Source of the DNA: a virus
Reading direction: 5' to 3' (one strand)
IMG/VR virus record: IMGVR_UViG_3300046808_000160
Span: 1 to 23,691 of that record
DNA length: 23,691 bases
Shown here: one piece after another, positions 4,757 to 19,271 of the stretch
Position numbering within the stretch: the stretch's first letter is position 1
How the letters are laid out: the number at the start of each line of letters is the position of its first letter
Program-made: the position numbers and the translations under genes
The notes under the pieces: generated by a model
Seen by the model: the letters and a program-made list of their open reading frames with translations, nothing else
The model's database searches: none
Told to the model about the DNA's origin: nothing

Positions 4757-5311
4757 TTATTCCTCTATGATAACAGATTTTGATGTACTGTTACTTTTAT
4801 TAAATTTATCAAATATAAATAATTGTAATGTAGATCTTAGTCCACTGATTACTGGCTCTACTCGGTGACTTGGTCCTCGACAAAATGTGTCATAGCAAGC
4901 AACGATGCCCTTATTAATATCTGGCATAACAACATGAGCAGTTTGATCATCCCACCACACAAATTCACCGCCTTCGATATTACTAAGAAATACAGTTAAA
5001 CTAAACATGCAGTAATCGGTATGTTTAGGTATAAATCCTCCAGCCGGTATCTTCTGAATAGCAATATCAGCATCCTTGAGCCAAGTCTTTTTATAACAAG
5101 GCAATTCAACATTGTTAAACAATTCAGATATAACAGTTAGCCTTATATTATCTGTAATAGTATGTGTAAAACATTCTGGTGCCGTTTTATTATTAGTTGA
5201 ATTTAGTGGCCATATATCATAACTACTTTTGTCTGTAGGCGATACATTCAAAAACGGTTTTAATAGTTCTAATGTGCTATGAGAAAAAATATTTGGAACC
5301 GTTTGGAACAT
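4757..5311 (-). CDS. 2OG-Fe(II) dioxygenase of the prolyl-4-hydroxylase-like type, 184 aa
   Basis: The start is ATG 5311, one base after the queE stop, with GGAAAG upstream. The longer frame from 5395 would run inside queE. The double-stranded beta-helix ligands are present: H97 and D99 in KHTDY, the distal H149 in GPSHRVEP, and R159 in GLRSTLQLF, the expected 2-oxoglutarate salt-bridge residue ten positions on. Between them lie FLSNIEGGEFVWWDD and a GIVACYDT turn typical of the family. Such enzymes hydroxylate proteins, nucleobases or small molecules using iron, oxygen and 2-oxoglutarate. The target is unknown; the position directly behind queE makes a link to base modification possible but unproven. 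Confidence 0.85.
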   Translation of the reverse strand: MFQTVPNIFSHSTLELLKPFLNVSPTDKSSYDIWPLNSTNNKTAPECFTHTITDNIRLTVISELFNNVELPCYKKTWLKDADIAIQKIPAGGFIPKHTDYCMFSLTVFLSNIEGGEFVWWDDQTAHVVMPDINKGIVACYDTFCRGPSHRVEPVISGLRSTLQLFIFDKFNKSNSTSKSVIIEE

Positions 5312-5312
5312 T

Positions 5313-6203
5313 TTACTTTCCGATAGCATTTCCGTAAATGTGTACGTGTACACGACTAGTATAGTTATAACCACGTTGAATGGCTTCATCAGCAATCATA
5401 GCTTCTGTAATCTTTAAGCCTTCTAGTGTACCACCTACACCCATAATCCATACAGGAAAGTTACATCCGGCTTCGCGGAATAACTGTGTATTCTGTTCTA
5501 CTTCTTCCCAGCTTTCCTTGCTACCATTGACAACAAACTTCAACTGACCGTGACGTGCAATGTGTGCGTACTGTGCTACTACTTCTGGTTGTATAGCTCT
5601 CTTATGCTTCTCTCCAGCAGTACTCCATAGCTTAGGACTAATGCTCCAATACCAATCACCGCCATGCTTCCAGAAGTATTCAGTAATGAACTGTTCTAGT
5701 TCGGGTGTGATTGGTTGGGTGCCGTTGGTCTCAATGGTAATGTTTTTAGGCATGTTATCTCTACGCCCGAACTCATTGAGGATAGCAACAATACCCTCCT
5801 GAGACTTCTTGAGCATAGGCTCACCGCCAGTAAACACCATGTGTGACCACTGCTTGCTCTTTGGGTGTTGGAATGAACCTCCTGGCAATAGTGCAGTTAA
5901 GTTGTCAACTGTTTCCTTAACTGTACGTTCTGTGATAAGATGGCTGTAACGTTTGCTCCATGTGTAGCTACTGTCACAGCCCTTATCAAACACAGGCAAG
6001 TCTTCTACACGAGTAATATTGCTTATATCAATAGTCTCGTAGGGCAACTCGTAAGTGCTTGGGTCAGTTGGTTTACATTGACCGAATCCATTACATTGTA
6101 AATTGCAAAGGAAAAAACGTAACCAGAGACTTGGTATACCTACGTATTTTCCCTCGCCTTGTGCGCTGTAAAACAATTCACTATATTTAATCGGCTTTTG
6201 CAT
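5313..6203 (-). CDS. queE: 7-carboxy-7-deazaguanine synthase (QueE-like radical SAM enzyme), 296 aa
   Basis: QueE contracts the ring of 6-carboxy-tetrahydropterin to 7-carboxy-7-deazaguanine (CDG) by a radical-SAM reaction. The opening SELFYSAQGEGKYVGIPSLW matches the QueE start (E.F.T.QGEG...G.P), FTGGEPML (124-131) is the GGEP SAM site, IETNG is at 157-161 and SISPKL at 187-192. The cluster region is unusual. C33 and C37 (CNLQC) are followed by NGFGQC (C43) and then about 32 extra residues before GCDSSYTW (C76), which aligns with the CDTKHTW segment that carries the third cluster cysteine in bacterial QueE. The gene lies four genes from dpdA's pathway partner folE's end and is one base from the oxygenase. 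Confidence 0.88.
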   Translation of the reverse strand: MQKPIKYSELFYSAQGEGKYVGIPSLWLRFFLCNLQCNGFGQCKPTDPSTYELPYETIDISNITRVEDLPVFDKGCDSSYTWSKRYSHLITERTVKETVDNLTALLPGGSFQHPKSKQWSHMVFTGGEPMLKKSQEGIVAILNEFGRRDNMPKNITIETNGTQPITPELEQFITEYFWKHGGDWYWSISPKLWSTAGEKHKRAIQPEVVAQYAHIARHGQLKFVVNGSKESWEEVEQNTQLFREAGCNFPVWIMGVGGTLEGLKITEAMIADEAIQRGYNYTSRVHVHIYGNAIGK

Positions 6204-6726
6204 TTTTCATCATTCTCATAAGTGCGTTATGATCTAACTGTGTTAATACATGGTCAATATTTGTTTGGTCAATGTCACCATAACTCTGCTTAAACGCATT
6301 TAATACTACACCATGCATACTATCCTCGTCAACTTTAACATTTTCTTTAAGGTCAAGTACAGCCTCAATTATAACTAAGTTAAGCGCATATGTAAATAGC
6401 TCTTGCAATGATTTAATATCAAAAAACAGTCTACCATAAATTAAAATGCTAAAATACATCTTATCATTGATCTCTGAAGTTTCTATTCCATATATATCGG
6501 AGCCTTTTGGATCAGCAATACAGCTTAACTTAAGCATATATGGCTTCTTTTCAAAAAGATCAACATATGTATCTAAACATTCAAATACTTCATCTTCAGT
6601 AATAAGGTATCTTGTAGTAATCCATTCTAGGGCCTTGTGCTCAGCAACACAATCACAGATGTCTGATACTGGAACACTATTTCTTGCAATAACATGAATA
6701 TTGCGAGGTCCTTTAGTTTTAATCAT
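6187..6726 (-). CDS. Hypothetical phage protein, 179 aa
   Basis: The gene lies between folE and queE and overlaps queE by 17 bases and the small upstream gene by 4, so it is co-translated with pathway genes. The protein looks mixed alpha/beta, with segments CVAEHKALEWITTRYLITED, YFSILIYGRLFFDIKSLQEL and a C-terminal helical part. I see no catalytic motif and recognise no family. Its place in the cluster is the only hint that it could assist deazaguanine synthesis. Confidence 0.7.
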   Translation of the reverse strand: MIKTKGPRNIHVIARNSVPVSDICDCVAEHKALEWITTRYLITEDEVFECLDTYVDLFEKKPYMLKLSCIADPKGSDIYGIETSEINDKMYFSILIYGRLFFDIKSLQELFTYALNLVIIEAVLDLKENVKVDEDSMHGVVLNAFKQSYGDIDQTNIDHVLTQLDHNALMRMMKNAKAD

Positions 6727-6953
6727 CGATAATGCCCCAATACTTTCGGTCCGGTGCTTTGGAATTCTAGTCCACCCATTGCACCAATATAATTATTATA
6801 TTTGCTATTGTATTGAAGATTAACTTTAACAGTATTAAGAGAAACAGTTAAATACTTACCCTCAACAAATGTAATCACGTCTGCTTCAACAGTTTTGTTA
6901 TTATCAATACATTCAACAATAGCTGTACGATCATATGATTTATATGTTGTCAT
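6723..6953 (-). CDS. Hypothetical phage protein, 76 aa
   Basis: This small beta-rich protein (TAIVECIDNNKTVEADVITF, then KYLTVSLNTVKVNLQYNSKY) ends with a Gly-rich segment. Alternating hydrophobic residues suggest a single small beta barrel or sheet. It overlaps the folE stop by 4 bases and the next gene by 4. A comparable arrangement of small beta proteins occurs in many T4-like phages, but I cannot name this one. Confidence 0.65.
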   Translation of the reverse strand: MTTYKSYDRTAIVECIDNNKTVEADVITFVEGKYLTVSLNTVKVNLQYNSKYNNYIGAMGGLEFQSTGPKVLGHYR

Positions 6954-7759
6954 CGCGGCGCAAATTCCTGCTGAAGTTTAATATTGTCAAAGAATTCTTT
7001 CTTTGTACCTGCATCATCCTTAAATGCACCCTTTAATACAGTTGTTTGTGTTAAACTACTGTGTGCCATAATACCACGATTCTCACAGCATCCGTGTACT
7101 GCTTGAATATAGACGCCTAAATCTTTGGCGCCTGTGGCTTTTTCGATTTCCCTAGCAATGTCATTAGCAAGTTCCTCCTGGAGAGTACCTCGTCTTGCAC
7201 ACCACTGTGCGATTCGCGTGTACTTGCTGAGTCCGATAAGTTTCTCGGCAGCAATAATACCAATATAAGCAACGCCAGTAACGGGTTGGTGATGATGGCT
7301 ACACATACTGCGAAGCTCACTGCGAACCACAAGCATACCTTCGTAGCGGTCTTGCGAGTCATTTGGAAATGCTGTTGCGTCTGGTGCTTGTTCATATCGT
7401 CCTGCCATAATTTCATTAAAGTACATTTTAGCCAAACGGCGAGCAGTACCCTTGCTGTTTGGATCAGTTTCTCGATCAATAAGTAACCTATCAAGTACTA
7501 GTTCAAAAGCCTCTGTAGCTTCGTCAATTAGCTTTTCTTTGTCACCTACCCATAAATAGTCACTGATATTATCGCCTGCCCAGAAACGCTTGTTATCACG
7601 CTTCATCTTAGCACGAATTACATCGGCTAGATAACCTTCTTCGTATTGTTTATCGCCCATAATACTACTTGCCTTATCTATGTTTTTATATTCGTCTGCT
7701 GTAAACGGTGTACGCGAATCACCGGTCACAGTAGTATCTAATTTAAATTTTTCTGTCAT
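6950..7759 (-). CDS. folE: GTP cyclohydrolase I (FolE), 269 aa
   Basis: FolE converts GTP to 7,8-dihydroneopterin triphosphate, the entry point to both folate and 7-deazaguanine. Zinc ligands are visible as C153 and H156 in SMCSHHHQPV and C224 in HGCCENRGIM. The substrate-binding stretch VAYIGIIAAEKLIGLSKYTRI follows the first site, as in bacterial FolE. At 269 residues it is about 45 longer than the E. coli enzyme, mainly an N-terminal extension (1-70) with no known motif. A CGGAG site precedes the ATG. It is the first gene after a near-perfect sigma70 promoter, so it is probably made early. With queD, queE and dpdA in the window its likely purpose is DNA modification, not folate. Confidence 0.95.
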   Translation of the reverse strand: MTEKFKLDTTVTGDSRTPFTADEYKNIDKASSIMGDKQYEEGYLADVIRAKMKRDNKRFWAGDNISDYLWVGDKEKLIDEATEAFELVLDRLLIDRETDPNSKGTARRLAKMYFNEIMAGRYEQAPDATAFPNDSQDRYEGMLVVRSELRSMCSHHHQPVTGVAYIGIIAAEKLIGLSKYTRIAQWCARRGTLQEELANDIAREIEKATGAKDLGVYIQAVHGCCENRGIMAHSSLTQTTVLKGAFKDDAGTKKEFFDNIKLQQEFAPR

Positions 7760-7799
7760 CTTAAAATCTCCGAGTTATAGACGTGGATGTCTACTTTTT

Positions 7800-7828
7800 A
7801 TTATACAGACAAATTGTTTATTTGTCAA
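7800..7828 (-). promoter_or_regulatory. Perfect-consensus sigma70 promoter of folE
   Basis: The minus strand reads TTGACA (7828-7823), a 17-base spacer, then TATAAT (7805-7800). Both hexamers and the spacing equal the E. coli sigma70 consensus. It lies in the 110-base gap before folE, 41 bases from the start codon. A phage early promoter used by host polymerase is the natural reading. A late-like CCTAAATAA lies just upstream at 7831-7839. Confidence 0.85.
7808..7826. promoter_or_regulatory. Perfect inverted repeat inside the folE promoter (candidate operator)
   Basis: The sequence gacaaat-tgttt-atttgtc is a perfect 7-bp inverted repeat with a 5-base centre. It fills the spacer between -10 and -35 and overlaps the -35 box. 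A dimeric repressor bound here would block RNA polymerase. An inverted repeat with the same 5-base spacing lies in the promoter at 12477-12506, though with a different sequence. The regulator is unknown. Confidence 0.55.
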
Positions 7829-7830
7829 TG

Positions 7831-7839
7831 TTATTTAGG
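7831..7839 (-). promoter_or_regulatory. Weak late-promoter-like motif, CCTAAATAA
   Basis: CCTAAATAA lies on the minus strand just upstream of the -35 box of the folE promoter. It fits the CTAAATA form of T4-like late promoters, but it stands 72 bases from the start codon and AT-rich DNA gives such matches by chance. Confidence 0.25.
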
Positions 7840-7869
7840 CAAAGTGTTGTATTATCGTGCATTTTTTTG

Positions 7870-8334
7870 TTAATTTCTATGCCACCAATCTTCCCAAGGA
7901 AACACAAACCATTGTGTATCATCAGAACGACCAATTTGTCTTGCAGAATAATCACACGCAAAACCACACTCTAGGTTTTCAATAGCTACAGCAAATCTAA
8001 TGTTCAATCGATTATATTCAGATGCTGCCTCAATGCCCTTTAATGTTTCTCCGCTATCACAAATATCGTCAACGATTAGAATTTGCTTGCCATCATATGT
8101 TGTGTACAGCTCTTTGAGTCTTGCAATATCTCTAGCAGAACCGTCTCTGGTCTGCCACTGAATTGATTCAAATGGAATGTCGTAGTAGTTGCTTAGTTTA
8201 ATACCAAAGTCAGCGCCGCCGCGCATTGGTGCAAACACTACATCTGGTTTAAACTTATCAACTGCCATATTACGAATAACTTCTGCATAGTAGTTATTCA
8301 TATCGCCATGAGTTAAGTATTCGTATTTAGGCAT
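7870..8334 (-). CDS. Purine-type phosphoribosyltransferase, 154 aa
   Basis: The start is ATG 8334 with GGAAG eight bases upstream; a frame from TTG 8349 is also open but less likely. The PRPP-binding motif is clear at about 85-98: ILIVDDICDSGETL. An upstream FAPMRGGADFG (34-44) gives the cis-peptide/pyrophosphate loop, and the C-terminal WFVFPWE resembles the end of xanthine-guanine and related purine phosphoribosyltransferases. It would join a purine base to PRPP. In this phage it could salvage guanine, including guanine released from DNA by base exchange, but the substrate cannot be read from sequence. Confidence 0.85.
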   Translation of the reverse strand: MPKYEYLTHGDMNNYYAEVIRNMAVDKFKPDVVFAPMRGGADFGIKLSNYYDIPFESIQWQTRDGSARDIARLKELYTTYDGKQILIVDDICDSGETLKGIEAASEYNRLNIRFAVAIENLECGFACDYSARQIGRSDDTQWFVFPWEDWWHRN

Positions 8335-8509
8335 CACTAATTCTTCCAAGTCGATGTAATAGGTTAGCGGCTATACTAAGATCAGGATGAGGATCACGAT
8401 CGCTATAGCCTTCAATCTTTTGAATCTTTGTAAGGTATGACTGCAATGCTCGTTTGATTACAGGAATATCTGCAGGAGCAAATGTGCCGCCTTTTACTTC
8501 TTTTACCAT
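8327..8509 (-). CDS. Hypothetical phage protein, 60 aa
   Basis: This small helical protein contains ADIPVIKRALQSYLTKIQKI followed by LSIAANLLHRLGRI, probably a two-helix hairpin. It overlaps the phosphoribosyltransferase start by 8 bases and follows galE by one base, so it belongs to the same transcript. AAGG stands nine bases before the ATG. No family is recognised. Confidence 0.6.
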   Translation of the reverse strand: MVKEVKGGTFAPADIPVIKRALQSYLTKIQKIEGYSDRDPHPDLSIAANLLHRLGRISDA

Positions 8510-8510
8510 T

Positions 8511-9488
8511 TTACTTTACCTTCTGTACCTTCTTTTCCCATTCATAGGCATGTTTAACAATATCATCTAACTTATATACTGGCTCCCAACCGAAAGAACT
8601 TTTTGCCTTTGCAATATCCGCAAATGTTTGCTTAGGGTCACCGGGCCTACGGTCAGTGATATTACATTCAATATTAGTTTGATTAACACGATTAAATGTG
8701 TTAATAACCTCTAGTACACTTGATGTTGAGCCTGCGCCAATGTTAAATGCACCGCTCATTCCACCATCTTCTAGATAGTGCATAGCAGCCAAATGTGCTG
8801 TAGCAATATCAAACACATGAGTGTAATCGCGCTCTGCTGTACCATCCTTTGTATCATAATCATTACCATATACATTAACAACATCACCGTTTATTGCTGC
8901 TCTTGCAAGAATAGGAATGAGATGACTTGCAGGCTCCTGTGTGTAGCCGTGCTTTAGATCCGGATCTGCGCCAGCCGCATTAAAATAACGTAGTGCGGCA
9001 AAGTTTAGACCGTATGAACGATAATAGTCAACTAGGATATCTTCTACCATCTTCTTAGTTCTACCATATGGTGATACAGGATCACGGTCAGTGGTTTCTG
9101 GCGTAGGGAACCTATCGACCATTCCGTATACACTGCTACTGCTACTAAACACAAAGTTCTTAACACCTGCACCAACTGCATGATTGAGCAGTGCAATAGT
9201 ATTAGCAACATTATTCCAGTAATACTTACCAGGTTCAACCATGCTACGACCAACTTCGTGTTCGGCAGCAAAGTGCATAATAGTGTCTGGTCTTGTTAAC
9301 TGAATAACACCTTTGAGTTGGTGATTGTCGATATCGAACGGATATTGAGTTACACCATCAATGTCTTTCTTCTTTTTGTCAATGTTAATAACATTGTGTC
9401 CGGCAGCAACAAGCAAGCGGCATACCATGCCACCTACAAATCCACTACCACCTGTAACAAGTACTGTCTTTTGCGTGTCTTTAACCAT
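8511..9488 (-). CDS. galE: UDP-glucose 4-epimerase-like NAD-dependent sugar epimerase, 325 aa
   Basis: The enzyme is an extended short-chain dehydrogenase that interconverts UDP-glucose and UDP-galactose (or the GlcNAc forms). The Rossmann motif is VTGGSGFVGG (G13, G16, G19), FSSSSSVYG (114-122) carries the catalytic Ser, and YGRTK gives Y141 and K145. The late motifs NAAGADPDLKHG, IPILARAA and YGNDYDTKDGTAERDY are those of GalE. The start at ATG 9488 has GGGAG eight bases upstream and overlaps the glycosyltransferase gene by 8 bases; earlier starts (9509, 9539) lie within that gene. It probably supplies a sugar donor to the neighbouring glycosyltransferases. Confidence 0.92.
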   Translation of the reverse strand: MVKDTQKTVLVTGGSGFVGGMVCRLLVAAGHNVINIDKKKKDIDGVTQYPFDIDNHQLKGVIQLTRPDTIMHFAAEHEVGRSMVEPGKYYWNNVANTIALLNHAVGAGVKNFVFSSSSSVYGMVDRFPTPETTDRDPVSPYGRTKKMVEDILVDYYRSYGLNFAALRYFNAAGADPDLKHGYTQEPASHLIPILARAAINGDVVNVYGNDYDTKDGTAERDYTHVFDIATAHLAAMHYLEDGGMSGAFNIGAGSTSSVLEVINTFNRVNQTNIECNITDRRPGDPKQTFADIAKAKSSFGWEPVYKLDDIVKHAYEWEKKVQKVK

Positions 9489-10560
9489 TGTTGTTTCTCC
9501 CGATGACATTGTAAAGTGAGTTACCACTAAAGAAGTCATCTGCTAGTTTTTTACGTTGTTCTCGAATAACTGGTTTCAAGTTATCATAGTTTGTCATTAG
9601 ATAATCAATATGCTTTAACAGTTGTTCTCTGTGTTTCAAATACGAATCATAGCTAAGTGTCCAGTCGCTGGGATATTTAAATTCATCTAGCGCCATTTCA
9701 CTATAACTTAATCTATCTGGTACCATAGGTATTGCATCTACTGCGATTCCTTCGTACCAACTAATACCAAGTGTTTCTTGTAGATTAGCACTAAACACCA
9801 TTTTTGATTGACCTAGCAGTGTGTGATATTCGTGCTTGCTTAGTTTATTATTCTGACATACCACAAAGTCATACTGTGGCAAGTGTTTGGCTAAGTCTTC
9901 AAAAATATCTAGTTGCTTTTCAGGGGCAATTCTATGAGGAAAAAGAATAAGATTCTTTTTAGGCAAGTTAGCATAATCATTTAACTTGTCTACAAGATAT
10001 TCCATAGGCCAACCTACACGATGAACTTTGTGTAGCAGTTGCCTATCAATATCTCTGTCGTCATTCCAAAATGTATTAAGGAACAAATCTAAATGAAACT
10101 GTGTAGCAAAGAAGTTATCGTCAAAACATTCGTACATGCTCATCTCTGCATGACGTACCCAAGGTGCATCACCAATTAGACGACCTAAGAAGTCAGCAGG
10201 ATCATAACTACCGGCATGCCACATACCACCAATACGCACCTTAACACCTAACAGTTCACTCATATACTTGAGCTGTAGTACTGTAGGATTCCATGCGTCA
10301 GTGTATAAGAAGTAATCACCATCTTGTACTTTACCGTCTGCAAACAGTTGTGCGATAGTTTTTAACTGCTCGCTCTTCCAATAGTTAGTGCCGCTAAAGT
10401 TGAGGAAGGCCCCAGGAGTAGTATCCTGAGGCGCATCACTCGGTCCTTCAATTACTTCAACATTGAGCCCAGCAGCTCGCATCTGCTCAGGCAGGAATTG
10501 TTTCCATTGTGCAGTATAACGTGTCTCAACTGGTTCAAGTTCTACTAGAAATAATTTCAT
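9481..10560 (-). CDS. GT-B glycosyltransferase, 359 aa
   Basis: The C-terminal half has a retaining GT4-like signature: LILFPHRIAPEKQLDIFEDL (about 204-223) is the usual R..P.K....F motif, and E262 to E270 in QETLGISWYEG form the EX7E donor-binding pair. The N-terminal half begins MKLFLVELEPVETRYTAQWK and has a GGMWHAGSYD loop. It transfers a sugar from a nucleotide donor to an unknown acceptor. The start overlaps the preceding stop (ATGA), and galE follows with an 8-base overlap, so the three genes should be co-translated. Candidates for the acceptor are virion proteins, host glycans or a modified base. Confidence 0.82.
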   Translation of the reverse strand: MKLFLVELEPVETRYTAQWKQFLPEQMRAAGLNVEVIEGPSDAPQDTTPGAFLNFSGTNYWKSEQLKTIAQLFADGKVQDGDYFLYTDAWNPTVLQLKYMSELLGVKVRIGGMWHAGSYDPADFLGRLIGDAPWVRHAEMSMYECFDDNFFATQFHLDLFLNTFWNDDRDIDRQLLHKVHRVGWPMEYLVDKLNDYANLPKKNLILFPHRIAPEKQLDIFEDLAKHLPQYDFVVCQNNKLSKHEYHTLLGQSKMVFSANLQETLGISWYEGIAVDAIPMVPDRLSYSEMALDEFKYPSDWTLSYDSYLKHREQLLKHIDYLMTNYDNLKPVIREQRKKLADDFFSGNSLYNVIGRNNNG

Positions 10561-10802
10561 TGCTTTTTCTTTTTATTAGATCCGTCAATAAGCCCACCGT
10601 AATCTACAACATGAGTAATAGGATCATCTAAACTCTGTGCATAGTTATTTAGACTATCAGCAGTAGCACGATCAACTTTTTCAGGCTGGGGTGATTCTGT
10701 ATTAGATGCGGGTTCACTAATCACAACATCAACAAATGCTTCGTTGAGTTCGTCAACCTGGTCATCTAACCAATCATTTGCCTTCTTTTCGGATGTAGAC
10801 AT
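10557..10802 (-). CDS. Hypothetical acidic phage protein, 81 aa
   Basis: The start is ATG 10802, one base after the stop of the preceding gene. A longer frame back to 10859 would run inside the membrane-protein gene. The sequence is acidic and low in complexity (WLDDQVDELNEAFVDVVISE, then PASNTESPQPEK), probably mostly disordered, with a basic tail of four lysines. It may be a scaffold-like or regulatory small protein; nothing in it is diagnostic. Confidence 0.6.
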   Translation of the reverse strand: MSTSEKKANDWLDDQVDELNEAFVDVVISEPASNTESPQPEKVDRATADSLNNYAQSLDDPITHVVDYGGLIDGSNKKKKQ

Positions 10803-10803
10803 T

Positions 10804-11472
10804 TTACTTCCTGTCACCAAATAGTTGCAGTAAGCTAATGAAAATATTAATAAAGTCAAGGTACAATGTTAGTGCGCCTGTGACTTCAGCATTGCCTGTA
10901 TTGTCGTATGCGATCATTTCTCGGATCTTTTGCGTATCGTATGCAGTAAGTCCAAGGAAAATAACAACAGCAAGTGCGCTAATAATCATCTGGAAAGGTC
11001 CACTACCAATAAAGATATTGATAACACTAGCAATAATAATGCCAATAAGTCCTACAAACATGAACTGACCAATGCTGGTAAGATCACGCTTAGTAGTGTA
11101 ACCGTATAGGCTTAATGCAAGGAACAAGCATGCCGCACCAAGGAACGCTTGCACAATGCTTAGTGAAGTATATACAACGAAGATAGTTGCAAAGCTCAAC
11201 CCCATTAGTGCGGCAAATCCGTGTAGCATTAGTAATGCCTGACTTCGCGTTACCTTATGCATAGTGAAACCAATAGCAAAAATTGCTACCAATGGTGCAA
11301 AGATAACAAGCCACTTCATTACTCCAGTAAAGAGAAATGTCATAAGTTCTGGACTTGTGCTTACTAGATAACTTACAATCATTGAGTTCATAACAGCTAG
11401 AAACATGTTTGAGTAAACACGGTTCATACCGTCAATTACATATTGCTTTGAATTGGCAATTGAACTTTGCAT
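10804..11472 (-). CDS. Bax inhibitor-1/YccA family integral membrane protein, 222 aa
   Basis: Hydrophobic segments appear in succession at about residues 23-45, 50-68, 77-98, 103-123, 134-153, 158-176 and a shorter one near 198-216, seven in all, as in BI-1/YccA (LFG) proteins. The LTAYDTQKIREMI segment near the C-terminus is the characteristic family motif. Bacterial members sit in the inner membrane. YccA modulates the FtsH protease, and BsYetJ conducts calcium in a pH-dependent way. A phage copy could protect the host membrane, inhibit a membrane protease or alter ion flow; none is shown here. AAGGAG stands seven bases before the ATG. The histone-like gene lies 11 bases upstream. Confidence 0.88.
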   Translation of the reverse strand: MQSSIANSKQYVIDGMNRVYSNMFLAVMNSMIVSYLVSTSPELMTFLFTGVMKWLVIFAPLVAIFAIGFTMHKVTRSQALLMLHGFAALMGLSFATIFVVYTSLSIVQAFLGAACLFLALSLYGYTTKRDLTSIGQFMFVGLIGIIIASVINIFIGSGPFQMIISALAVVIFLGLTAYDTQKIREMIAYDNTGNAEVTGALTLYLDFINIFISLLQLFGDRK

Positions 11473-11483
11473 TATGCTTCTCC

Positions 11484-11672
11484 TTAGGCTGCGCTGGCAG
11501 CGTTCTTCTTGTCCTGAATTTCAGCACGACGTACCTTTGACAACTTGCCAAGTTCGCCTAATGCCTTGCGAGCGCGAGCGGCTGCTGCCTTAACGCCCTT
11601 TACTTCAAATGCTTCTGATTCCTTAAGGTACTCTTCGAATAGTGCCTTCATCTTTAAATGTGTCTCGGTCAT
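11484..11672 (-). CDS. Small histone-like basic protein, 62 aa
   Basis: The protein is rich in Ala and Lys/Arg: a helical N-terminus (MTETHLKMKALFEEYLKE) is followed by KAAAARARKALGELGKLSKV and ends in DKKNAASAA. The composition recalls histone H1/Hc1-like small proteins of marine phages and bacteria. DNA binding or compaction is the likely role, for host chromosome or phage DNA, but it is inferred from composition. The TAGGAG ribosome binding site is strong. It lies in the queD transcript. Confidence 0.65.
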   Translation of the reverse strand: MTETHLKMKALFEEYLKESEAFEVKGVKAAAARARKALGELGKLSKVRRAEIQDKKNAASAA

Positions 11673-11684
11673 TTTTTTCTCCTA

Positions 11685-12095
11685 TTATCTAAAATATGTT
11701 GGACCATCAACCTGCCAATCTTGTTGTTTGGCAGGAAAATCAATTTCGCAGCCGTTTTCGTTATCTTCGGCTACAGAAATCTTTAGCCAGCGGTTAGGAT
11801 ACTTTTTAGTAATCTCCACTGCTAAATCTTCTGCGATCATCTCGCAACTCTTATGATTCAATTCAAGTACGTCCTGTGCGTATAACCGCTCCATCCAACG
11901 CTTGAACTGAATAAATTCGATATCCCTGTCGTCGTGGAATACTTCAATCCAGACTTTAAAATGGAACATGTGTCTGTGTGGCACACCTAGAAAACTTACA
12001 TCATCCCAACCGCCTGTGGCTAGTTTAGGATCGGTGTCGGCACCTGGATACATATGGATGCCTTCTTTTTGAAATGTAACCCAAATAGTTTTCAT
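11685..12095 (-). CDS. queD: 6-carboxy-5,6,7,8-tetrahydropterin synthase-like protein (QueD/PTPS fold), 136 aa
   Basis: QueD makes 6-carboxytetrahydropterin from the FolE product. The T-fold pattern can be followed: VTFQKEGIHMYP gives H14, and PHRHMFHFKVWIEV gives H40 and H42, which align with the three zinc histidines of QueD (AAHRL and LHGHSF in E. coli). IEFIQFKRWMERL matches the IDFAELK stretch, and ELNHKSCEMIAEDLA followed by ISVAEDNENG matches the C-terminal half with its Glu. The catalytic Cys that E. coli QueD has between the histidines is absent: positions 15-39 contain no Cys. So the family is fairly clear but the exact reaction is not certain. AAGGAC precedes the ATG. Confidence 0.78.
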   Translation of the reverse strand: MKTIWVTFQKEGIHMYPGADTDPKLATGGWDDVSFLGVPHRHMFHFKVWIEVFHDDRDIEFIQFKRWMERLYAQDVLELNHKSCEMIAEDLAVEITKKYPNRWLKISVAEDNENGCEIDFPAKQQDWQVDGPTYFR

Positions 12096-12286
12096 TCTTT
12101 GTCCTTGTTTTCAGCTGACCGCCTTAGTATTTCTTCGTGAATCTCATGTTCGTAGTATTTGCCGGTCTCTCTTCTCAAGCGATTTCTTTCTGAGATATAT
12201 TTGTTTGACTCCCAAATAAACCAAGTTAAGATTGAAAAGAAAACAAATGCGACTAAGCCAACTATAATGTTAATAAATATTTCCAT
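12092..12286 (-). CDS. Small single-pass membrane protein, 64 aa
   Basis: One hydrophobic segment (about residues 5-25, IFINIIVGLVAFVFFSILTW) is followed by a charged cytoplasmic-type tail (ISERNRLRRETGKYYEHEIH). Positive charges directly after the helix suggest the C-terminus is inside. It overlaps queD by 4 bases and touches the upstream small gene by one base. A role in membrane takeover or lysis timing is possible but there is no specific evidence. Confidence 0.65.
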   Translation of the reverse strand: MEIFINIIVGLVAFVFFSILTWFIWESNKYISERNRLRRETGKYYEHEIHEEILRRSAENKDKE

Positions 12287-12468
12287 TACTTTCTAAACTC
12301 CTGCTCTATTTGTTCTAACTCTTCAGGAAACTTAGCACCGCACTTACGAATGAATTTGATAAACTTCATAAAGACTTCTTGCAAGTCTTGCTCAGTTTCC
12401 AAGCTGTCAATCTTTAGCGTGGTACTTACTACTACTCCATCATCATCACATTCTAATTTTATATTCAT
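12286..12468 (-). CDS. Hypothetical acidic protein, 60 aa
   Basis: The protein has a beta-like N-terminus (MNIKLECDDDGVVVSTTLKI) and a helical C-terminal half (DLQEVFMKFIKFIRKCGAKF). It is the first gene after the promoter at 12477-12506, with a very short leader and no visible ribosome binding site, so its translation may be weak. No family is recognised. Confidence 0.55.
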   Translation of the reverse strand: MNIKLECDDDGVVVSTTLKIDSLETEQDLQEVFMKFIKFIRKCGAKFPEELEQIEQEFRK

Positions 12469-12476
12469 ATTAGTTT

Positions 12477-12506
12477 ATAATATACTACACTTTTTGTGTA
12501 TGTCAA
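12477..12506 (-). promoter_or_regulatory. Sigma70-type promoter of the queD segment
   Basis: TTGACA (12506-12501) is followed after 16 bases by TATATT (12484-12479), or after 18 by TATTAT (12482-12477). Each matches five of six consensus bases. It lies in the 34-base gap after the dpdA-linked gene, and its -35 box contains the TGA stop of that gene. It should feed the small genes, queD and the downstream histone-like and membrane-protein genes. Confidence 0.7.
12486..12500. promoter_or_regulatory. Inverted repeat inside the queD-segment promoter (candidate operator)
   Basis: tacac-ttttt-gtgta is a perfect 5-bp inverted repeat around a 5-base T tract, placed between -35 and -10. The folE promoter has a repeat in the same location with the same centre length but another sequence. 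It is short, so chance is possible. Confidence 0.35.
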
Positions 12507-13018
12507 GAGATAACTTCATCGCTAGTGTATTTAGACCAGTCAGTAAAGTTTTCCCTATTTTGTAGGCTGTGCAAACTGTGACACCAAACGCCCGGATTTG
12601 ACTTCTTAAATCCGGTATCATCAATTTTAATTGTAGTATTATAATTGAATAAACGAATATAGGGTACCTTAACACTAATCATAGGAATGAAGTTATCAAA
12701 CTCGCACCAACCACTATCGTGGAACCATTCATGTTTAGCATAACTGCTATCAAAATCTAGCGTTACCCAAATTCCATCTTGCAATAGCCCGGTAATTAAA
12801 ACGTCCCAATGTTCCCAATCACTATCCTTGGGTGCAAAACTTTGGTTAGCACCTAAATAGATGTGTGGGCATTTGTTGTTTAGCGCACGAGCCAAGATTT
12901 CTTCTTTTGGCTGCAACCCTACAACAAACAGTGTTCTCTGTCCGTGTGCAGGACTATGCTCTACTTCAACTCCAACAAAGAATTTGGTGCTGTCGTTGTG
13001 ACCGTCTCTATTCTCCAT
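12503..13018 (-). CDS. Unknown protein encoded directly after dpdA, 171 aa
   Basis: The start is ATG 13018 with GGAG six bases upstream (a TTG one codon earlier is also open). It overlaps the dpdA stop by 11 bases, so the two are translationally coupled. The first 60 residues look like one alpha/beta unit: FFVGVEVEHSPAHGQRTLFV, then QPKEEILARALNNKCPHIYLGANQSF. Then come acidic, Trp-rich segments (DSDWEHWDVLITGL, WFHDSGWCEFDNFIPMISV). The E-H-x-x-x-H-like cluster near residue 20 could bind metal, but this is not a recognised motif. A role as DpdA partner or in making its substrate is inferred from coupling alone. Confidence 0.78.
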   Translation of the reverse strand: MENRDGHNDSTKFFVGVEVEHSPAHGQRTLFVVGLQPKEEILARALNNKCPHIYLGANQSFAPKDSDWEHWDVLITGLLQDGIWVTLDFDSSYAKHEWFHDSGWCEFDNFIPMISVKVPYIRLFNYNTTIKIDDTGFKKSNPGVWCHSLHSLQNRENFTDWSKYTSDEVIS

Positions 13019-14564
13019 CAAAGTCTCCCATCATTGCAGGACTGAGCATTTCGTCCTCTCTGCTAACAGTTTCGTCGTGTACCGCAGTTGACGCTTCTTC
13101 AAAGAAACTAGTGTCTAGATGAGTTTCAGTAGCATAACTACCAAAGCTAATTTCATCTAAGAATTTGCTGTACTTGTCAATAAGTTCGTAAGGATTCGGA
13201 CACGCAGGATCAAGCACTTCCTGAACAAAGCTGTCAAAATATACAACACTATAAGGAACATACGGACTAAACTCGTTTGTACCTTTATTTGTTTTGTCAT
13301 TAATCCAATCGCTATAATGCACATTGGCGCGATACTTTTCCATGTCGGCTAACCGATTAGCTTCTTGTACCGCAGTAATATGATTGAACACACTATGCGC
13401 CATGTAGTATAGATAGCTCTGCGTATCCCAACTTGTACTGTCTTTGGTCTTTGCCTTACCGTTACGATCCAAGTCACCTTCTTCCATGCAGCAGATATCA
13501 CCTGCAACCAACCGCTCCATAATTGGACCATTAAACGGCATTGGTAATGTACTGCCCTTTAACTTTTGATTGTCAAACGCACGGTTCATGAAATAACCAA
13601 AACGCTTTGGAGAAAAGTAGTTATAGCTGTAGCATTGACCGTACGCTGTGTTAACAAACGGACTGGCAGCATCAAAGCTGATTGTTATGTTTGGACTGTC
13701 GTGCTTGCGTAGCATACGTTGAATGCTAGTGAGATAGCAAGCCCAATTTAACTTACCTGTACCAAGGAAGTGAATCCAGCCCTTGCCCTCAAGTAGCCCA
13801 TCTTCACGTAGCTTTAGAATACGCTTAAGAGCAATTGGCATGTTACGCATATTAATACCAGCGAAAGCATAACCTTCTAGTGTACGATCTGCATCACCGT
13901 AATTAGCAGCAACAAACTTAGGATCACTAAAATGCTTAACACTTTCATACCAGTCGTCGGCACTCTTTTGATCGGTACCTGACAGTACATTTAGAAACTT
14001 AGTTTTGCCTGGTACACGATTGCGTACAAAGTAGTCTAGGTTAAGCATACTGATATCAATAGTGTCCTGGATCTTAGTCAGTCCAGTCTTCTTGTTGTAT
14101 GGTGGTACAGCGGCAAACCCAGGAATATCTAATGTCATAGCCCAGTCGGCAGTATGTTCAAGCCAGCGTAAGATCTTTTCACATAGCTCAATACGACTAG
14201 GATCATTAGGATCTTTAGCGTTAGACCAATCTAGTTTTAATACGCCACTAGCAACCTGGAATCCGCCGGAGTCACCGAGGATAGTTGTAACATTCCTGTT
14301 ACGCTTTTGAACCATAGGTTCTTCGTTATCACTCTTAGTTGTATCTAAATGTGCGTGACCAGCTGAATAAAGACCGTATGGATAATGGTAATAGCTGTGC
14401 TCCGGGTTAAGAAAATCTAACCCTGCATTACCTAATTCAAATCCTGGCGGAGTACGCCATTCGGTTGGATTAGCTAATGTTTTTTGTAATTGCTTTGTAT
14501 AAAAGCTACTGATCGCAGGCAAATATACTGCATAGTCGCTTTGACGTTTTCCTAAGTCTTTCAT
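13008..14564 (-). CDS. dpdA: DpdA-like 7-deazaguanine DNA transglycosylase, 518 aa
   Basis: The protein has the catalytic layout of tRNA-guanine transglycosylase (TGT) in a form typical of DNA-acting DpdA. ILGDSGGFQVASG (95-107) gives D98, equal to the DSGGFQ base-binding site of TGT. WAMTLDIPGF (141-150) resembles the DpdA TLDIP segment. FLNVLSGTDQKS (190-201) replaces the VQGG substrate loop. FLGTGKLNWACY leads to ISFDAASPF with D298, which aligns with the TGT nucleophile in FDCVMPTR. No CXCX2C zinc motif is visible. At 518 residues it exceeds bacterial TGT (about 375). It would swap guanine in DNA for a 7-deazaguanine made by FolE-QueD-QueE. It begins 3 bases after the sliding-clamp gene. 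Protein or tRNA targets are less likely but not excluded. Confidence 0.85.
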   Translation of the reverse strand: MKDLGKRQSDYAVYLPAISSFYTKQLQKTLANPTEWRTPPGFELGNAGLDFLNPEHSYYHYPYGLYSAGHAHLDTTKSDNEEPMVQKRNRNVTTILGDSGGFQVASGVLKLDWSNAKDPNDPSRIELCEKILRWLEHTADWAMTLDIPGFAAVPPYNKKTGLTKIQDTIDISMLNLDYFVRNRVPGKTKFLNVLSGTDQKSADDWYESVKHFSDPKFVAANYGDADRTLEGYAFAGINMRNMPIALKRILKLREDGLLEGKGWIHFLGTGKLNWACYLTSIQRMLRKHDSPNITISFDAASPFVNTAYGQCYSYNYFSPKRFGYFMNRAFDNQKLKGSTLPMPFNGPIMERLVAGDICCMEEGDLDRNGKAKTKDSTSWDTQSYLYYMAHSVFNHITAVQEANRLADMEKYRANVHYSDWINDKTNKGTNEFSPYVPYSVVYFDSFVQEVLDPACPNPYELIDKYSKFLDEISFGSYATETHLDTSFFEEASTAVHDETVSREDEMLSPAMMGDFDGE

Positions 14565-14567
14565 TAA

Positions 14568-15323
14568 TTAACCTTTAGCTGGAAGTAGATAAGTGTATTC
14601 GCCCATGCCACTATCTACCTTAATTTGTAGCAAACCCTTGTTATTAATACTTAGAACCATGCCAGCACTATCACCGAGGCGTAAAATCTTTAGTACAATA
14701 TCAAGCGGCCAACGGAACTCATGCTTAGTTTCACCGTCAACGCCTTCGGCAATGAGAATCTTTGTACGATCACTTACACCGTCGCCGATGTGGAAATATA
14801 ATTTACCGCCATCTGTCTTTGGCATAAAAGTTGATTCGTATGCACCAAGAACACTGTTAAAGTAACCTAGGTCCTTAAGATTCTTTGCAGAAGGTACAAT
14901 GTTGATATCAAACTCTGCGCCCTTAAATGTAATGTCTTTTAGTTGCTGATTAACAACGTCAGCTAACATAAAGCGGTAGTTAGCATCTGTCCCGTCATTG
15001 GCAACAAACTTAACTTCAACAGGAATGTCTACTTCGTTACGCTTCTGTGAAACTACAGCAACCGTTGCATCTTCGCTGTCAAAACCTGGATACTTTAGAT
15101 ATCCGTCAAGTACGCTCATACGGCTTAGACCAACAGTAGCATCAACAAAGTCTGCTACAGGGTTATGTGTCTTGCCCTTAAAGATAACTGTCTTGTCTGC
15201 GTCAACAGTTTCAATTTTTGTTTCTTCAAGTGTACCGGTAACCTTAACCATTTCATAAATGCCGAGGCTGTGTGTATGCTTGATGATGTCTTTTAATGTG
15301 TCTTTGATATAATTATTTGCCAT
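14568..15323 (-). CDS. gp45: DNA polymerase sliding clamp (T4 gp45-like), 251 aa
   Basis: The protein has the all-beta, two-domain pattern of gp45 clamps. It begins with a helix (NNYIKDTLKDIIKHTHSLGI), then EMVKVTG strands, a central DVVNQQLKDITFKGAEFDIN segment and a C-terminal half with WPLDIVLKILRLGDSAGMVL, ending in EYTYLLPAKG. T4 gp45 has 228 residues; this is somewhat longer. Three copies form a ring that tethers the polymerase to DNA and, in T4, also activates late transcription. AGGAG stands eight bases before the ATG. A near-consensus sigma70 promoter precedes it, and dpdA follows after 3 bases. Confidence 0.88.
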   Translation of the reverse strand: MANNYIKDTLKDIIKHTHSLGIYEMVKVTGTLEETKIETVDADKTVIFKGKTHNPVADFVDATVGLSRMSVLDGYLKYPGFDSEDATVAVVSQKRNEVDIPVEVKFVANDGTDANYRFMLADVVNQQLKDITFKGAEFDINIVPSAKNLKDLGYFNSVLGAYESTFMPKTDGGKLYFHIGDGVSDRTKILIAEGVDGETKHEFRWPLDIVLKILRLGDSAGMVLSINNKGLLQIKVDSGMGEYTYLLPAKG

Positions 15324-15398: not shown

Positions 15399-18080
15399 TT
15401 AAAATTCAAAAAATTCATTGAGTGCTTCGCTTTCTTTGGTTTGAGACAAGTCCCAGCCCATTTGCCCAAGAACGTTTTCTACCTTCTTATCTAATACTGC
15501 TTCTTCCATTGCTTCGTTGTCAAATGGTAGATCTTTGAACCATTGAGGTAGGTTTAGTTCATCGGTAGGATACGCAATGCTACTATATCCCATAGCGTTA
15601 TTCTTTAAGCGACATACAATAACTTTCATGCCATCCATGATAGTCATACTGTAGTTGTCACCGAATGCAGTTTTAATGTCATTCCAGTTAATACTTGCTC
15701 GAACGTGACCAGGAATCATATTATTGCTAGATTCATCCTTTAGAGATTCTAGTTTGAACAATTTCATGTTTTCTGTCTTACGTGTACTCTTTAGTTTTTC
15801 GGTGTAGTTAGTTAAGTTATTGACACGCTTAGGCATGCCTTTCTTCCAAGGATCTAAACTTTGGAAATTCTTCTTAAACTCTTTTACCTTAGCGATAACT
15901 TCTTTTTCGGTCGCGCCACTTAATGCGTCATCAAGTACCTCTTCTAAGAAGTCTTGTACAAACTCAGGTGTATCACTGCGCTTGATCTCCATACCCATAA
16001 TCTTGAGCTTACCACCTTCTGGTTGGTAACCTTCAATATCGAGACACTTGATAGCGTAACGCTTCTTAGTAATAAATAGGCCTGAGCGACCAACTACTTC
16101 GCGGCCTGCTTTTAGCACCTTACCGTTTTCATACGGAACATTGAATTCTGTTTTTAGGAAACCAGGAAACCCATCGCTTACTGTATCACTGATGTGATCG
16201 TATAGTTTAACAGCACTGTCTAGATCAAGTTCACTGCCTTGCGGAAGTGCAGGAACCGCAGTAAAGTACACAGAGTCAGTGTCGCCGTAAATGATACAAT
16301 CGCCTACGTGGTCAAACTTACCAGTGAGCAATTCGTTGGTCTTACCTGCCATAAAACGTGTAATGCGGCGACCAGTTAGCGTTGTACTTTGACCGATGCG
16401 TTTATCGAAGAAGCGGCAACCTGGGTTAAGAATAGCGCCATACAAACTATTCAAGTTAATCTTCTTAACTAGCTGTCGTTTGTCCCAGAATGCCTTTTCT
16501 TCGTCTGTTGTTGCTTCTTTCTTTTTGGCTTGCAGATCCTTACGCTCAGCATACCAACGTTCTAGTAGACCAGGCACAATGCCTTGGAAATCAGTTCTAA
16601 AGATAGTACCATTTGCACTAATGTTCCAAGGTTGGCCGCTGTTAAAGATTAGGTTATAAACATCTGCCCCAGTAACTTCAACCGTAGCACCATCTTCCAT
16701 GTCAAGTTTCATAACATGGTTGACATCCTTACTAGCAACGAATTCAAACTCGTTTGTACCAAACTTGCCTAACCATGCATCAGCGAAACTAGCTTTTTCT
16801 AATTTGATCTTGTTGTTGATTTCTTCTTCAGTATAGTCAGGCCGCAACTGACCAACAATAGTTTCAGCAGCCATGTTTAGCGCCCGGAACACACTAGGAT
16901 ATAGACTGTTAATGTCCATGCTGCCTACCCAATCATGGTAGCCTTTCTTTGGGAAAGCAACATAGGCACCTGCTGCCTGAGTATCTCCCCTCTCGCTTCT
17001 ATTACGATCGGGTACTACAAATCCTCGCCGATGTGCTTCGTTAATAATTGCTTGTTCTGTAGTAGCAACAGCACCCATTGTTGTGGGTAATAACACTGTG
17101 TTATCGTGTGCAATAGTGTTAGCAAGATCAATAAACTGTAGCTTCTTATCCAGCTTATTGAGAAGTACCGTATCTTGAATGTTGTATTCTAAGAACTTTT
17201 CAAAATCGTGATTATATAGTCTGTCCAATGAACCTTCGTAAGCAACCTTGCGCTCGCCGATCTCCATCTCACCAATATAATCTAGACGATAACTGTGGCG
17301 CTCTTCGTAGTTATATTTACGATATAACTGCATGTAGTCTAGATGTACACGCCCAACTAAGTCGTATGTTTGACGCTGACTACCGTATGCTTCATACTCT
17401 CGTACTGTGGGCATTTGATCCCACAAGCAAAGTCTACGTAGTTCATTCTTACCTAATACTTTAATGATGCGGTTGATGGTATAAGGAATATCATAACCTT
17501 CACTGTTCCATCCGCTTAGGATGTCAGCATCTTCGATAAGAACAAGGAATGTTTCGAGCATTTCTTTTTCTGTACGGAATAGAATAACCTCAGGAAGTCT
17601 ACTAGCAATCGCTTGTGCTTGCTCCCAACTTAGTGTCTTAGGTGGTACAGCCAAACACACCATAGCTTCTTGCCACTGTAGATAAACACCAATGGCAGTG
17701 ATAGGCATGAATGCTTCTTCGGGGTTAGCATATCCACGCTCAGGATCAAAGTCAACCTCAATATCCCAAAATGCTGTTTGCAGTTTTGGAGTATCAGCAC
17801 CGCTATAGTGTTTAGCGATAGTTTTGTTTAGAGGCTTAATATCACTTTCAAACTTTTTAACTTGGCTGTTAATGGCCACGTTCTTTCTGAAATCTTTGAT
17901 ATTCCTACAACGTATTTCACTTACAGTATCTCCGTAAATACTGCGATGACTACCGCGCGGGTCTGCAATGTAAAAGTTGTATTCAGGTTTGTGGTCAACT
18001 AGTATTCTTTTACCGTTAACTCGTTCGACTACTCGAATAAAGTCTTTGGCCTTATCATAGAAGGCGTCTACGTAACTCAT
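15399..18080 (-). CDS. gp43: Replicative family-B DNA polymerase (T4 gp43-like), 893 aa
   Basis: This is the main phage replicase with 3'-5' proofreading. Positions count from ATG 18080. Exo I is AFWDIEVDFD (D106, E108), Exo II GWNSEGYDIPY (about 190-200), Exo III YNIQDT (D303). Polymerase motif A is SMDINSLYPSVF (D389), motif B KKINLNSLYGAILN (about 539-552) and motif C IIYGDTDSVYF (D600, D602). The C-terminus ALNEFFEF resembles the clamp-binding tail LDFLFG of T4 gp43. GGAG lies 12 bases before this ATG; a TTG at 18098 would give 899 residues. T4 gp43 has 898. All catalytic acids are present. dsbA precedes and the clamp gene follows. Confidence 0.95.
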   Translation of the reverse strand: MSYVDAFYDKAKDFIRVVERVNGKRILVDHKPEYNFYIADPRGSHRSIYGDTVSEIRCRNIKDFRKNVAINSQVKKFESDIKPLNKTIAKHYSGADTPKLQTAFWDIEVDFDPERGYANPEEAFMPITAIGVYLQWQEAMVCLAVPPKTLSWEQAQAIASRLPEVILFRTEKEMLETFLVLIEDADILSGWNSEGYDIPYTINRIIKVLGKNELRRLCLWDQMPTVREYEAYGSQRQTYDLVGRVHLDYMQLYRKYNYEERHSYRLDYIGEMEIGERKVAYEGSLDRLYNHDFEKFLEYNIQDTVLLNKLDKKLQFIDLANTIAHDNTVLLPTTMGAVATTEQAIINEAHRRGFVVPDRNRSERGDTQAAGAYVAFPKKGYHDWVGSMDINSLYPSVFRALNMAAETIVGQLRPDYTEEEINNKIKLEKASFADAWLGKFGTNEFEFVASKDVNHVMKLDMEDGATVEVTGADVYNLIFNSGQPWNISANGTIFRTDFQGIVPGLLERWYAERKDLQAKKKEATTDEEKAFWDKRQLVKKINLNSLYGAILNPGCRFFDKRIGQSTTLTGRRITRFMAGKTNELLTGKFDHVGDCIIYGDTDSVYFTAVPALPQGSELDLDSAVKLYDHISDTVSDGFPGFLKTEFNVPYENGKVLKAGREVVGRSGLFITKKRYAIKCLDIEGYQPEGGKLKIMGMEIKRSDTPEFVQDFLEEVLDDALSGATEKEVIAKVKEFKKNFQSLDPWKKGMPKRVNNLTNYTEKLKSTRKTENMKLFKLESLKDESSNNMIPGHVRASINWNDIKTAFGDNYSMTIMDGMKVIVCRLKNNAMGYSSIAYPTDELNLPQWFKDLPFDNEAMEEAVLDKKVENVLGQMGWDLSQTKESEALNEFFEF

Positions 18081-18141
18081 GTATGTGTATTTCTCCAAGC
18101 ATCATTTTAAGGCTGACGCACCACCAAGTATATTTAAATGT

Positions 18142-18412: not shown

Positions 18413-18628
18413 TCAAGTGTTTTGTGTGTTAATATTTATTTTAACATCGTTCATTATAACAGGATTCTGGTTTTTGTCAACTTCTATATAGTAAGAAGTT
18501 TTGAATCCTGGCATTTGATCAAAACTAATTTGTTCTAGAATATGACGATCTTTGATTCGGTTACCGTGTTCATCATATGCAACAAACTGATTGCCTGTTT
18601 GATGTACTTCTATTCTAATTTTGGGCAT
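18413..18628 (-). CDS. Hypothetical phage protein, 71 aa
   Basis: This small protein is beta-rich: MPKIRIEVHQTGNQFVAYDE is followed by RIKDRHILEQISFDQM and SYYIEVDKNQNPVIM. It looks like a compact all-beta domain. It overlaps the sulfotransferase gene by 14 bases and has AGGAA ten bases before its ATG. The dsbA promoter lies inside its 3' half. No family is recognised. Confidence 0.65.
   Translation of the reverse strand: MPKIRIEVHQTGNQFVAYDEHGNRIKDRHILEQISFDQMPGFKTSYYIEVDKNQNPVIMNDVKININTQNT
18433..18440 (-). promoter_or_regulatory. Possible late promoter of dsbA, AATAAATA
   Basis: AATAAATA on the minus strand matches TATAAATA at seven of eight positions and lies 28 bases before the dsbA start. 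It overlaps the last codons of the upstream gene. It is AT-rich and could be chance. Confidence 0.4.
18453..18480 (-). promoter_or_regulatory. Sigma70-type promoter of dsbA with perfect hexamers
   Basis: TTGACA (18480-18475), a 16-base spacer and TATAAT (18458-18453) lie 48 bases before the dsbA start, inside the 3' half of the preceding 71-aa gene. Both hexamers are perfect and the spacing is one base short of optimal. It would allow early dsbA and polymerase expression apart from the virion genes upstream. Confidence 0.75.
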
Positions 18629-19271
18629 AATCTAACATTTCCTGATAGTTGCTAAATTTAGTATAACCAAACGCACTAAAATCACTATGTGCAATATCAT
18701 TGATGATACTAATCACTGAATCGTCATAAAACTTTAGAATGGACCTTATAGATTCTTGTTCATTAATAATTGTACTAGTCCCGAGACCGTTGCGCTTTAA
18801 TCTAGGAAAAGAATCTAAATTTATATTATATATGCTGCTAACATCAGAAATTAAATTTTCAAATTTAATAACATTAATTTTTCCTGTAATACCTTTAGTC
18901 CAATAGGTACACGGAGCACTAGTAAGATTTGGTAGTCGATATAATGCATTCATTAAATATCGTTTAAAATCTGTTATTGATTTATTACTATCTTTTGATT
19001 CATCTAAATTAATATTTTTGCTATTCCAAAAAAATTGATAGTATATAGACACATACCTTGTATAAGGTGAACGCACACTTATCGAGTAGGTAGACTTTGC
19101 GGGATAACCAAATTCTTCAAAAGTCTTATGCATTTCTCCCGGGTCTTGCATAAATGTATCAAAATTATCGGATTGAAATACTGCAATTTTACTTTGCACT
19201 AGAGCATTAATTATGGAACTACCGGCAGTTTTAGGAGGATGTAAAAAGATAGGCCCATTATATTGAATCAA
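18615..19271 (-). CDS. Sulfotransferase-family protein, 218 aa
   Basis: Two PAPS-binding motifs are visible: IFLHPPKTAGSSIINAL (8-24) is the 5'-phosphosulfate loop, and SISVRSPYTRYVSIYYQF (63-80) is the 3'-phosphate motif with R67 and S-x-x-x-R. The rest (EESKDSNKS-type linker, CTYWTKGITGKINVIKFENL) is of the cell-surface carbohydrate sulfotransferase type. It would transfer sulfate from PAPS to a sugar or protein. The start is TTG 19271, overlapping the TGA stop of the virion gene, with GGAGGAG just upstream; the first internal ATG would remove the PAPS loop. It is AT-rich by eye. The substrate is unknown, perhaps a virion or host glycan. Confidence 0.82.
   Translation of the reverse strand: MIQYNGPIFLHPPKTAGSSIINALVQSKIAVFQSDNFDTFMQDPGEMHKTFEEFGYPAKSTYSISVRSPYTRYVSIYYQFFWNSKNINLDESKDSNKSITDFKRYLMNALYRLPNLTSAPCTYWTKGITGKINVIKFENLISDVSSIYNINLDSFPRLKRNGLGTSTIINEQESIRSILKFYDDSVISIINDIAHSDFSAFGYTKFSNYQEMLDYAQN

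Follow-up and report, generated by a model that had tools for sequence, protein, structure and literature searches.

The window analysed here, a 23,691-base stretch of viral DNA (IMG/VR record IMGVR_UViG_3300046808_000160) with nearly all of its likely genes on the minus strand, encodes enzymes of 7-deazaguanine synthesis together with a predicted DNA guanine transglycosylase of the DpdA kind and a glycosyltransferase (GT). We read this gene set, with somewhat more confidence than doubt, as a DNA-hypermodification cassette of a PA5oct-like jumbo phage, one that would operate independently of QueC, with a QueD-like protein (QDL) acting on 7-carboxy-7-deazaguanine (CDG) and the GT probably decorating the base. 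The core deazaguanine DNA-modification pathway is strongly supported, since FolE, QueE and a protein with the DpdA/TGT fold are all present. PA5oct-like jumbo phages, like many other viruses, keep DpdA, QDL, GT, GalE, a phosphoribosyltransferase, FolE and QueE together as a single conserved cassette. In the window, these genes are placed as follows:

13008..14564, minus strand: DpdA-like DNA guanine transglycosylase (predicted), 518 aa; TGT/DpdA fold, with D98 (DSGGFQ) and D298 (ISFDAASP) invariant
11685..12095, minus strand: QDL, PTPS/T-fold QueD paralogue, 136 aa, candidate CDG-processing enzyme; from profile comparison and invariant residues
9481..10560, minus strand: GT-B, GT4-like retaining glycosyltransferase, 359 aa; PF00534, invariant R210, E214-K215, E262-x7-E270
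8511..9539, minus strand: GalE, UDP-glucose 4-epimerase, presumed sugar-nucleotide supply; TIGR01179
7870..8349, minus strand: phosphoribosyltransferase; PF00156, phrog_8995
6950..7759, minus strand: FolE, GTP cyclohydrolase I, 269 aa; PF01227, PDB 4du6
5313..6203, minus strand: QueE, 7-carboxy-7-deazaguanine synthase, phage subfamily, 296 aa; phrog_2076

Conservation of the cassette

An earlier note on this DNA had proposed a deazaguanine pathway from four open reading frames (ORFs) on one strand, FolE, QueE, a QueD-like protein and a DpdA-like transglycosylase. All four are found on the minus strand at these positions, stop codons included, and they are not chance ORFs, because as many as 32 independent IMG/VR contigs carry homologues in the same arrangement (64-99% identical in the case of the DpdA-like protein). 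By its sequence, FolE is certain: it matches PF01227 (E 1.3e-38) and the PDB GTP cyclohydrolase I 4du6 (E 3.8e-26), with both zinc-ligand motifs, MCSHH and CCENRG, present. The sequence evidence for QueE is good and makes its identity well supported; it includes a match to phrog_2076 ('QueE-like radical SAM', E 6e-51), 40% identity to the QueE of phage nt-1, and radical SAM cluster cysteines (CX3C and the third Cys, in CDS) that align with those of E. coli QueE, and the score remains below the NCBIfam QueE equivalog cut-offs (best 37.9 bits versus 240). The QueE of the window lineage, nt-1, PA5oct and BUCT-ZZ01 carries about 40 additional residues after the second cluster cysteine and before the third, an insert missing from that of E. 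coli, 9g and ACP17. The DNA of nt-1 carries 7-deazaguanines (PMC6884629).

An alignment scan of viral contigs returned at least 594 confirmed QDL matches; a viral scan with the phiST QDL gave no confirmed locus. Among 217 QDL loci, GT is found in 184, DpdA of the window type in 154 and of the DpdA2 type in 14, FolE in 142, QueE in 127, the phosphoribosyltransferase in 122 (the same PHROG occurs in the cassette of BUCT-ZZ01), GalE in 79 and QueC in none; conversely, neither QDL nor GT occurs in any of 80 QueC control loci. With dereplicated loci and at least 6 kb of flank on each side, GT is present in 41/51 QDL loci and 0/12 QueC loci (Fisher p 2.4e-7), a contrast that is strong but not unbiased, because the controls come mostly from KVP40-like phages.

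Relatives of the window share the order polymerase, clamp-like gene, DpdA, QDL, GT, GalE, phosphoribosyltransferase, FolE, QueE, exonuclease, and divergent alleles of FolE, QueE and GT have been swapped locally at the same position among them. The cassette functions also occur together in other gene orders and with another type of DpdA in ACP17 (QueD-FolE-x-DpdA2-GT-QDL-QueE), BUCT-ZZ01 and X1, and in Phosso, where DpdA lies elsewhere in the genome. Some bacterial chromosomes (Magnetospirillum, Aurantimonas, Methylobacterium) also combine DpdA, QDL and GT. The view that these genes do not form one compact cluster is wrong, because the intervening glycan genes belong to the conserved cassette.

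Some of these loci have further features. In Xanthomonas phage X1 (L058 5846-6379) a PAPS-reductase-family gene lies inside the FolE-GT-DpdA2-QDL-QueE cassette. Magnetospirillum chromosomes (L161 6823-10905; also L160, L162, L164 and L168) have the arrangement GT-QDL-DpdA-QueD, with a HEPN_LA2681 protein, a CoiA-type nuclease and a phage-type integrase nearby; the region is possibly a bacterial deazaguanine island or a prophage remnant. Actinobacterial QDL-like genes (L170, L171) occur in Paractinoplanes, with FolE, QueD and QueE nearby, and in Streptomyces specialis, possibly in 7-deazapurine metabolite clusters.

Linkage of the glycosyltransferase to QDL

GT matches PF00534 in 8 of 9 members, and its nearest solved structure is the AmGGT-type glucosyltransferase 8xsg (E 5e-5). 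The GT4 motif is intact, with R210, E214-K215 and E262-x7-E270 invariant across nine diverse members, as is an N-terminal RYT motif. GalE scores 330.7 bits against TIGR01179 (cut-off 262.3). Both had been taken for unrelated glycan genes. That view does not hold for a GT found next to QDL across unrelated phages and also in bacterial chromosomes, and it is simplest to assume that GT acts on the product of the deazaguanine pathway. GT is missing from the vicinity of QDL in some genomes, and its contribution would therefore be an accessory step.

Those genomes bear on an alternative without base glycosylation, in which QDL would be a CDG decarboxylase, DpdA would insert 7-deazaguanine (giving dDG) or CDG (giving dCDG), and GT and GalE would serve, for example, a surface glycan. 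Such a system would fit phiST, RHph_I1_18 and Ahp1, which have FolE, QueE-type genes and QDL and no GT nearby. In most loci, however, GT directly adjoins QDL (median gap 242 bp over 184 loci), and the linkage holds in unrelated phages and in bacterial chromosomes where the gene order is reversed. Such close tracking of QDL, combined with absence from the QueC controls, is not what one would expect of a surface-glycan gene, and we regard this alternative as unlikely.

A different link between sugars and deazaguanine synthesis is seen in Xanthomonas phage PhiXhv-16 (L249 6669-9903), where a GlcNAc-malate-deacetylase-type gene and a glycosyltransferase come after Gat-QueC.

QDL and the missing QueC

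Sequence searches with QDL against Pfam, NCBIfam, PADLOC and PDB yielded nothing useful: only 1 of 19 window-lineage members reached PF01242, at E 0.084, and the best PDB match, the PTPS homologue PH0634, was not significant on its own. A single-sequence fold (pLDDT 49) was too poor for use. Profile comparison, in contrast, connects QDL to the PTPS family (hhalign E 3.3e-5, prob 72%). Across 81 dereplicated members, H14, H40, H42, H54, R57, E60, S83, E85 and E110 are invariant; these include three zinc-type histidines (H14, H40, H42) and two glutamates (E85, E110), which points to a T-fold protein that keeps the zinc histidines and substrate glutamates of the family.

QDL had been proposed to be QueD itself. 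We reject this assignment because the catalytic residues are missing and a true QueD is co-encoded: Cys27 and Asp70-His71 of QueD, invariant in the PTPS alignment, have no conserved equivalent in the 81 members, and a true PTPS/QueD above the Pfam cut-off stands beside QDL in eight genomes (ACP17, BUCT-ZZ01, phiST, Phosso, X1, RHph_I1_18, Ahp1 and PA5oct). Indeed, most complete QDL-bearing genomes also encode a true QueD.

The earlier note had also allowed that the phage might encode QueC elsewhere. The window is a fragment of a phage genome. Neither QueC nor Gat-QueC was found in a 250-kb relative (G001), in the complete genomes of PA5oct, Phosso, ACP17, BUCT-ZZ01, phiST, Ahp1 and RHph_I1_18, or within the flanks of the 217 QDL loci. 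QDL and QueC look like alternatives. Weak QueC matches in two other relatives (G003, G005) and in X1 were read as NAD synthetase-like proteins. In Vibrio phage D479 (L062 452-2142), the single QDL genome with such a match, a divergent QueC-like protein adjoins a nicotinamide-phosphoribosyltransferase-like ORF.

The host could in principle make up for this absence, as QueC is present in hosts such as P. aeruginosa. A standard preQ0 pathway would then combine a QDL working as QueD with host QueC and a DpdA that inserts preQ0, and the 250-kb relative, with no PTPS match and QDL in the place of QueD, would suit it. It is hard to reconcile with the loss of the QueD catalytic residues, with the coexistence of QDL and true QueD, and with the lack of QueC across a cassette family that retains FolE and QueE; we consider it improbable.

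The DpdA-like protein

Searched by sequence, the 518-aa protein matches nothing in Pfam, PHROG, NCBIfam or the PDB, and PADLOC likewise gave nothing useful; it was identified through profile and fold comparison. Its relatives in GenBank phages are 'hypothetical' proteins of the Wroclawvirus group, PA5oct and Paride included (50% identity), a protein of Sinorhizobium phage Phosso (31%) and one of Vibrio phage 2.275.O (36%) that sits inside a cluster of QueF, a transporter, QueC, FolE and QueD. Its profile matches that of DpdA2 (KVP40, ACP17, BUCT-ZZ01, X1) with an hhalign E of 1.5e-5 and a probability of 80%, and E. coli TGT with an E of 1.2e-3. The latter alignment is in register, pairing the motifs DSGGFQ, LD, NVLSG/GIIQG, GYAFAG/GYAVGG and LGTGK/MGVGK. 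Both candidate catalytic aspartates, D98 and D298, are invariant in 22 and in 10 diverse members.

An AF2 model built from 22 sequences of the window lineage (mean pLDDT 68.6) has TGT/QTRT2 as its top Foldseek matches in the PDB (E 1.9e-3, prob 0.99), and the DpdA2 of nt-1 (R9TGF0) is among its matches to viral structures (E 1.5e-7), in agreement with the fold that the earlier note had expected. The nearest characterised relatives are the DpdA2 proteins of Vibrio phages nt-1 and KVP40, although the relation to that subfamily (phrog_10773) is at profile level only and the window protein falls outside it; DpdA1 (9g) is too distant for a profile match. We therefore take the 518-aa protein, on sequence motifs and modelled fold, as a divergent DpdA predicted to exchange guanine in DNA. 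The TGT-like fold would also be compatible with action on phage or host tRNA, in a queuosine-type modification pathway, but this is very improbable given that the characterised proteins nearest to it are the DpdA2 of phages with modified DNA (PMC6884629), that Pfam TGT is unmatched, that neither the window lineage nor PA5oct was found to have QueF, and that the genes stand in a replication context.

Proposed pathway

In the pathway that we favour, GTP would be converted to CDG by FolE, QueD and QueE, of which QueD would come from the host or from a gene beyond the fragment, and QDL would then act on CDG at the point where QueC acts in known systems. Our leading guess for its reaction, one that we find fairly probable, is decarboxylation to 7-deazaguanine, most simply by a zinc-dependent route. 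The DpdA-family protein would then put this base into phage DNA in place of guanine, and the guanine so released may, speculatively, be recycled by the phosphoribosyltransferase. GalE would provide the sugar nucleotide with which the GT-B enzyme would glycosylate the deazaguanine; whether the inserted base is what GT decorates seems to us evenly poised. The full product, a glycosylated 7-deazaguanine in DNA made through a new base from QDL, insertion by DpdA and hexose transfer by a dedicated GT4 enzyme, possibly at C7 or via the carboxylate, is put forward more tentatively, at slightly less than an even chance. Such a sugar-bearing deazaguanine would provide bulky protection against restriction.

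Several observations weigh against this pathway, in addition to the make-up of the QueC controls. The 250-kb relative lacks a PTPS/QueD match, so that QDL could take the role of QueD there, and host QueC could turn CDG into preQ0. No GT lies near QDL in phiST, RHph_I1_18, Ahp1 and D479, and with plain 7-deazaguanine as the base it is not obvious which atom would accept a sugar. Confidence in the DpdA model is moderate (mean pLDDT 68.6), and its PDB matches reach no better than E 2e-3. Finally, searches of the papers on MIJ3, PA5oct, Paride and Callisto turned up neither restriction results nor base analyses of these phages, and the literature consulted describes no such chemistry for any phage of the lineage.

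Most of the deazaguanine systems known in phages derive from preQ0 by way of QueC, and a widespread QueC-less branch with a T-fold enzyme and a GT would add a new or sugar-decorated DNA base. If the proposal is true, it would be a purine-side counterpart of the glucosyl-hydroxymethylcytosine of T4, and it would occur across hundreds of viruses and in a handful of bacterial chromosomes. PA5oct and Paride, which carry the cassette, are under study for therapy and for their killing of dormant cells, and restriction, CRISPR and sequencing could all be affected by the modification. The prediction is directly testable, because PA5oct, Paride, Callisto, ACP17, BUCT-ZZ01, X1 and Phosso are isolated phages.

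Neighbouring genes

Other conserved genes of the window lie next to or within the cassette:

15399..18098, minus strand: DNA polymerase, the replication context of the cassette; the PA5oct homologue is annotated as DNA polymerase
14568..15323, minus strand: putative, probable sliding clamp; follows the polymerase and is conserved in relatives (phrog_12062, unknown function)
12503..13021, minus strand: conserved neighbour, 172 aa, overlapping the end of dpdA; near the same place in most relatives, with no Pfam match
6187..6726, minus strand: neighbour between folE and queE, 179 aa, conserved in relatives, with no NCBIfam match

Directly after queE, the ORF at 4757-5395 may encode a 2OG-Fe(II) oxygenase (PF13640 E 0.0027, below cut-off); it is confined to closer relatives, and its listed TTG start, which overlaps queE, is probably too early. 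By eye, the protein at 18615-19271 resembles a sulfotransferase (PPKTAGSS near the N terminus). In a locus of a close relative (L040 36-1950), an IMPDH/GMP-reductase-like gene adjoins an NAD synthetase-like gene.

Comparison with known systems

Deazaguanine modification of phage DNA is already known (PMC6884629), as is the system of PA5oct (PMC7824862). With the preQ0/archaeosine systems that use DpdA1 or DpdA2 (9g, CAjan, nt-1; PMC6884629) the window shares FolE, QueE and a transglycosylase, and its DpdA has motifs in common with the DpdA2 group; polymerase and probable clamp genes adjoin the cassette, as in 9g. It differs from those systems in having QDL and GT instead of QueC, Gat-QueC and QueF, and its DpdA does not belong to the PHROG in which the DpdA2 homologues of ACP17, BUCT-ZZ01 and X1 are grouped. 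PA5oct, of the Wroclawvirus group, belongs to the same lineage and has DpdA (50% identical), QDL (62%), GT (45%) and QueE (38%) in one region; unlike the window, its cassette has no GalE match, and FolE and two PTPS genes lie about 55 kb away. The QDL and GT genes are not described in the available part of the paper that notes the PA5oct system (PMC7824862), and no description of the GT/QDL linkage was found in the literature searched.

Relative to the QueD/PTPS family (PF01242), QDL shares the T-fold and the zinc-type histidines and lacks the catalytic Cys and Asp-His. A 2023 paper in Nucleic Acids Research by Cui and colleagues reportedly describes phages that contain dDG and dCDG, together with DpdL, an enzyme that decarboxylates CDG. 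Those pathways, too, reportedly lack QueC and employ one more small enzyme on CDG, which would favour the alternative without base glycosylation. The DNA glycosyltransferases of T4-like phages act on hydroxymethylcytosine, and purine-type acceptors are not known to us to be glycosylated in DNA. Those enzymes resemble the one proposed here in being GT-B proteins that act on an already modified phage base, whereas the GT of the window belongs to a different, GT4-like family and, if our reading is right, would use a purine-type acceptor.

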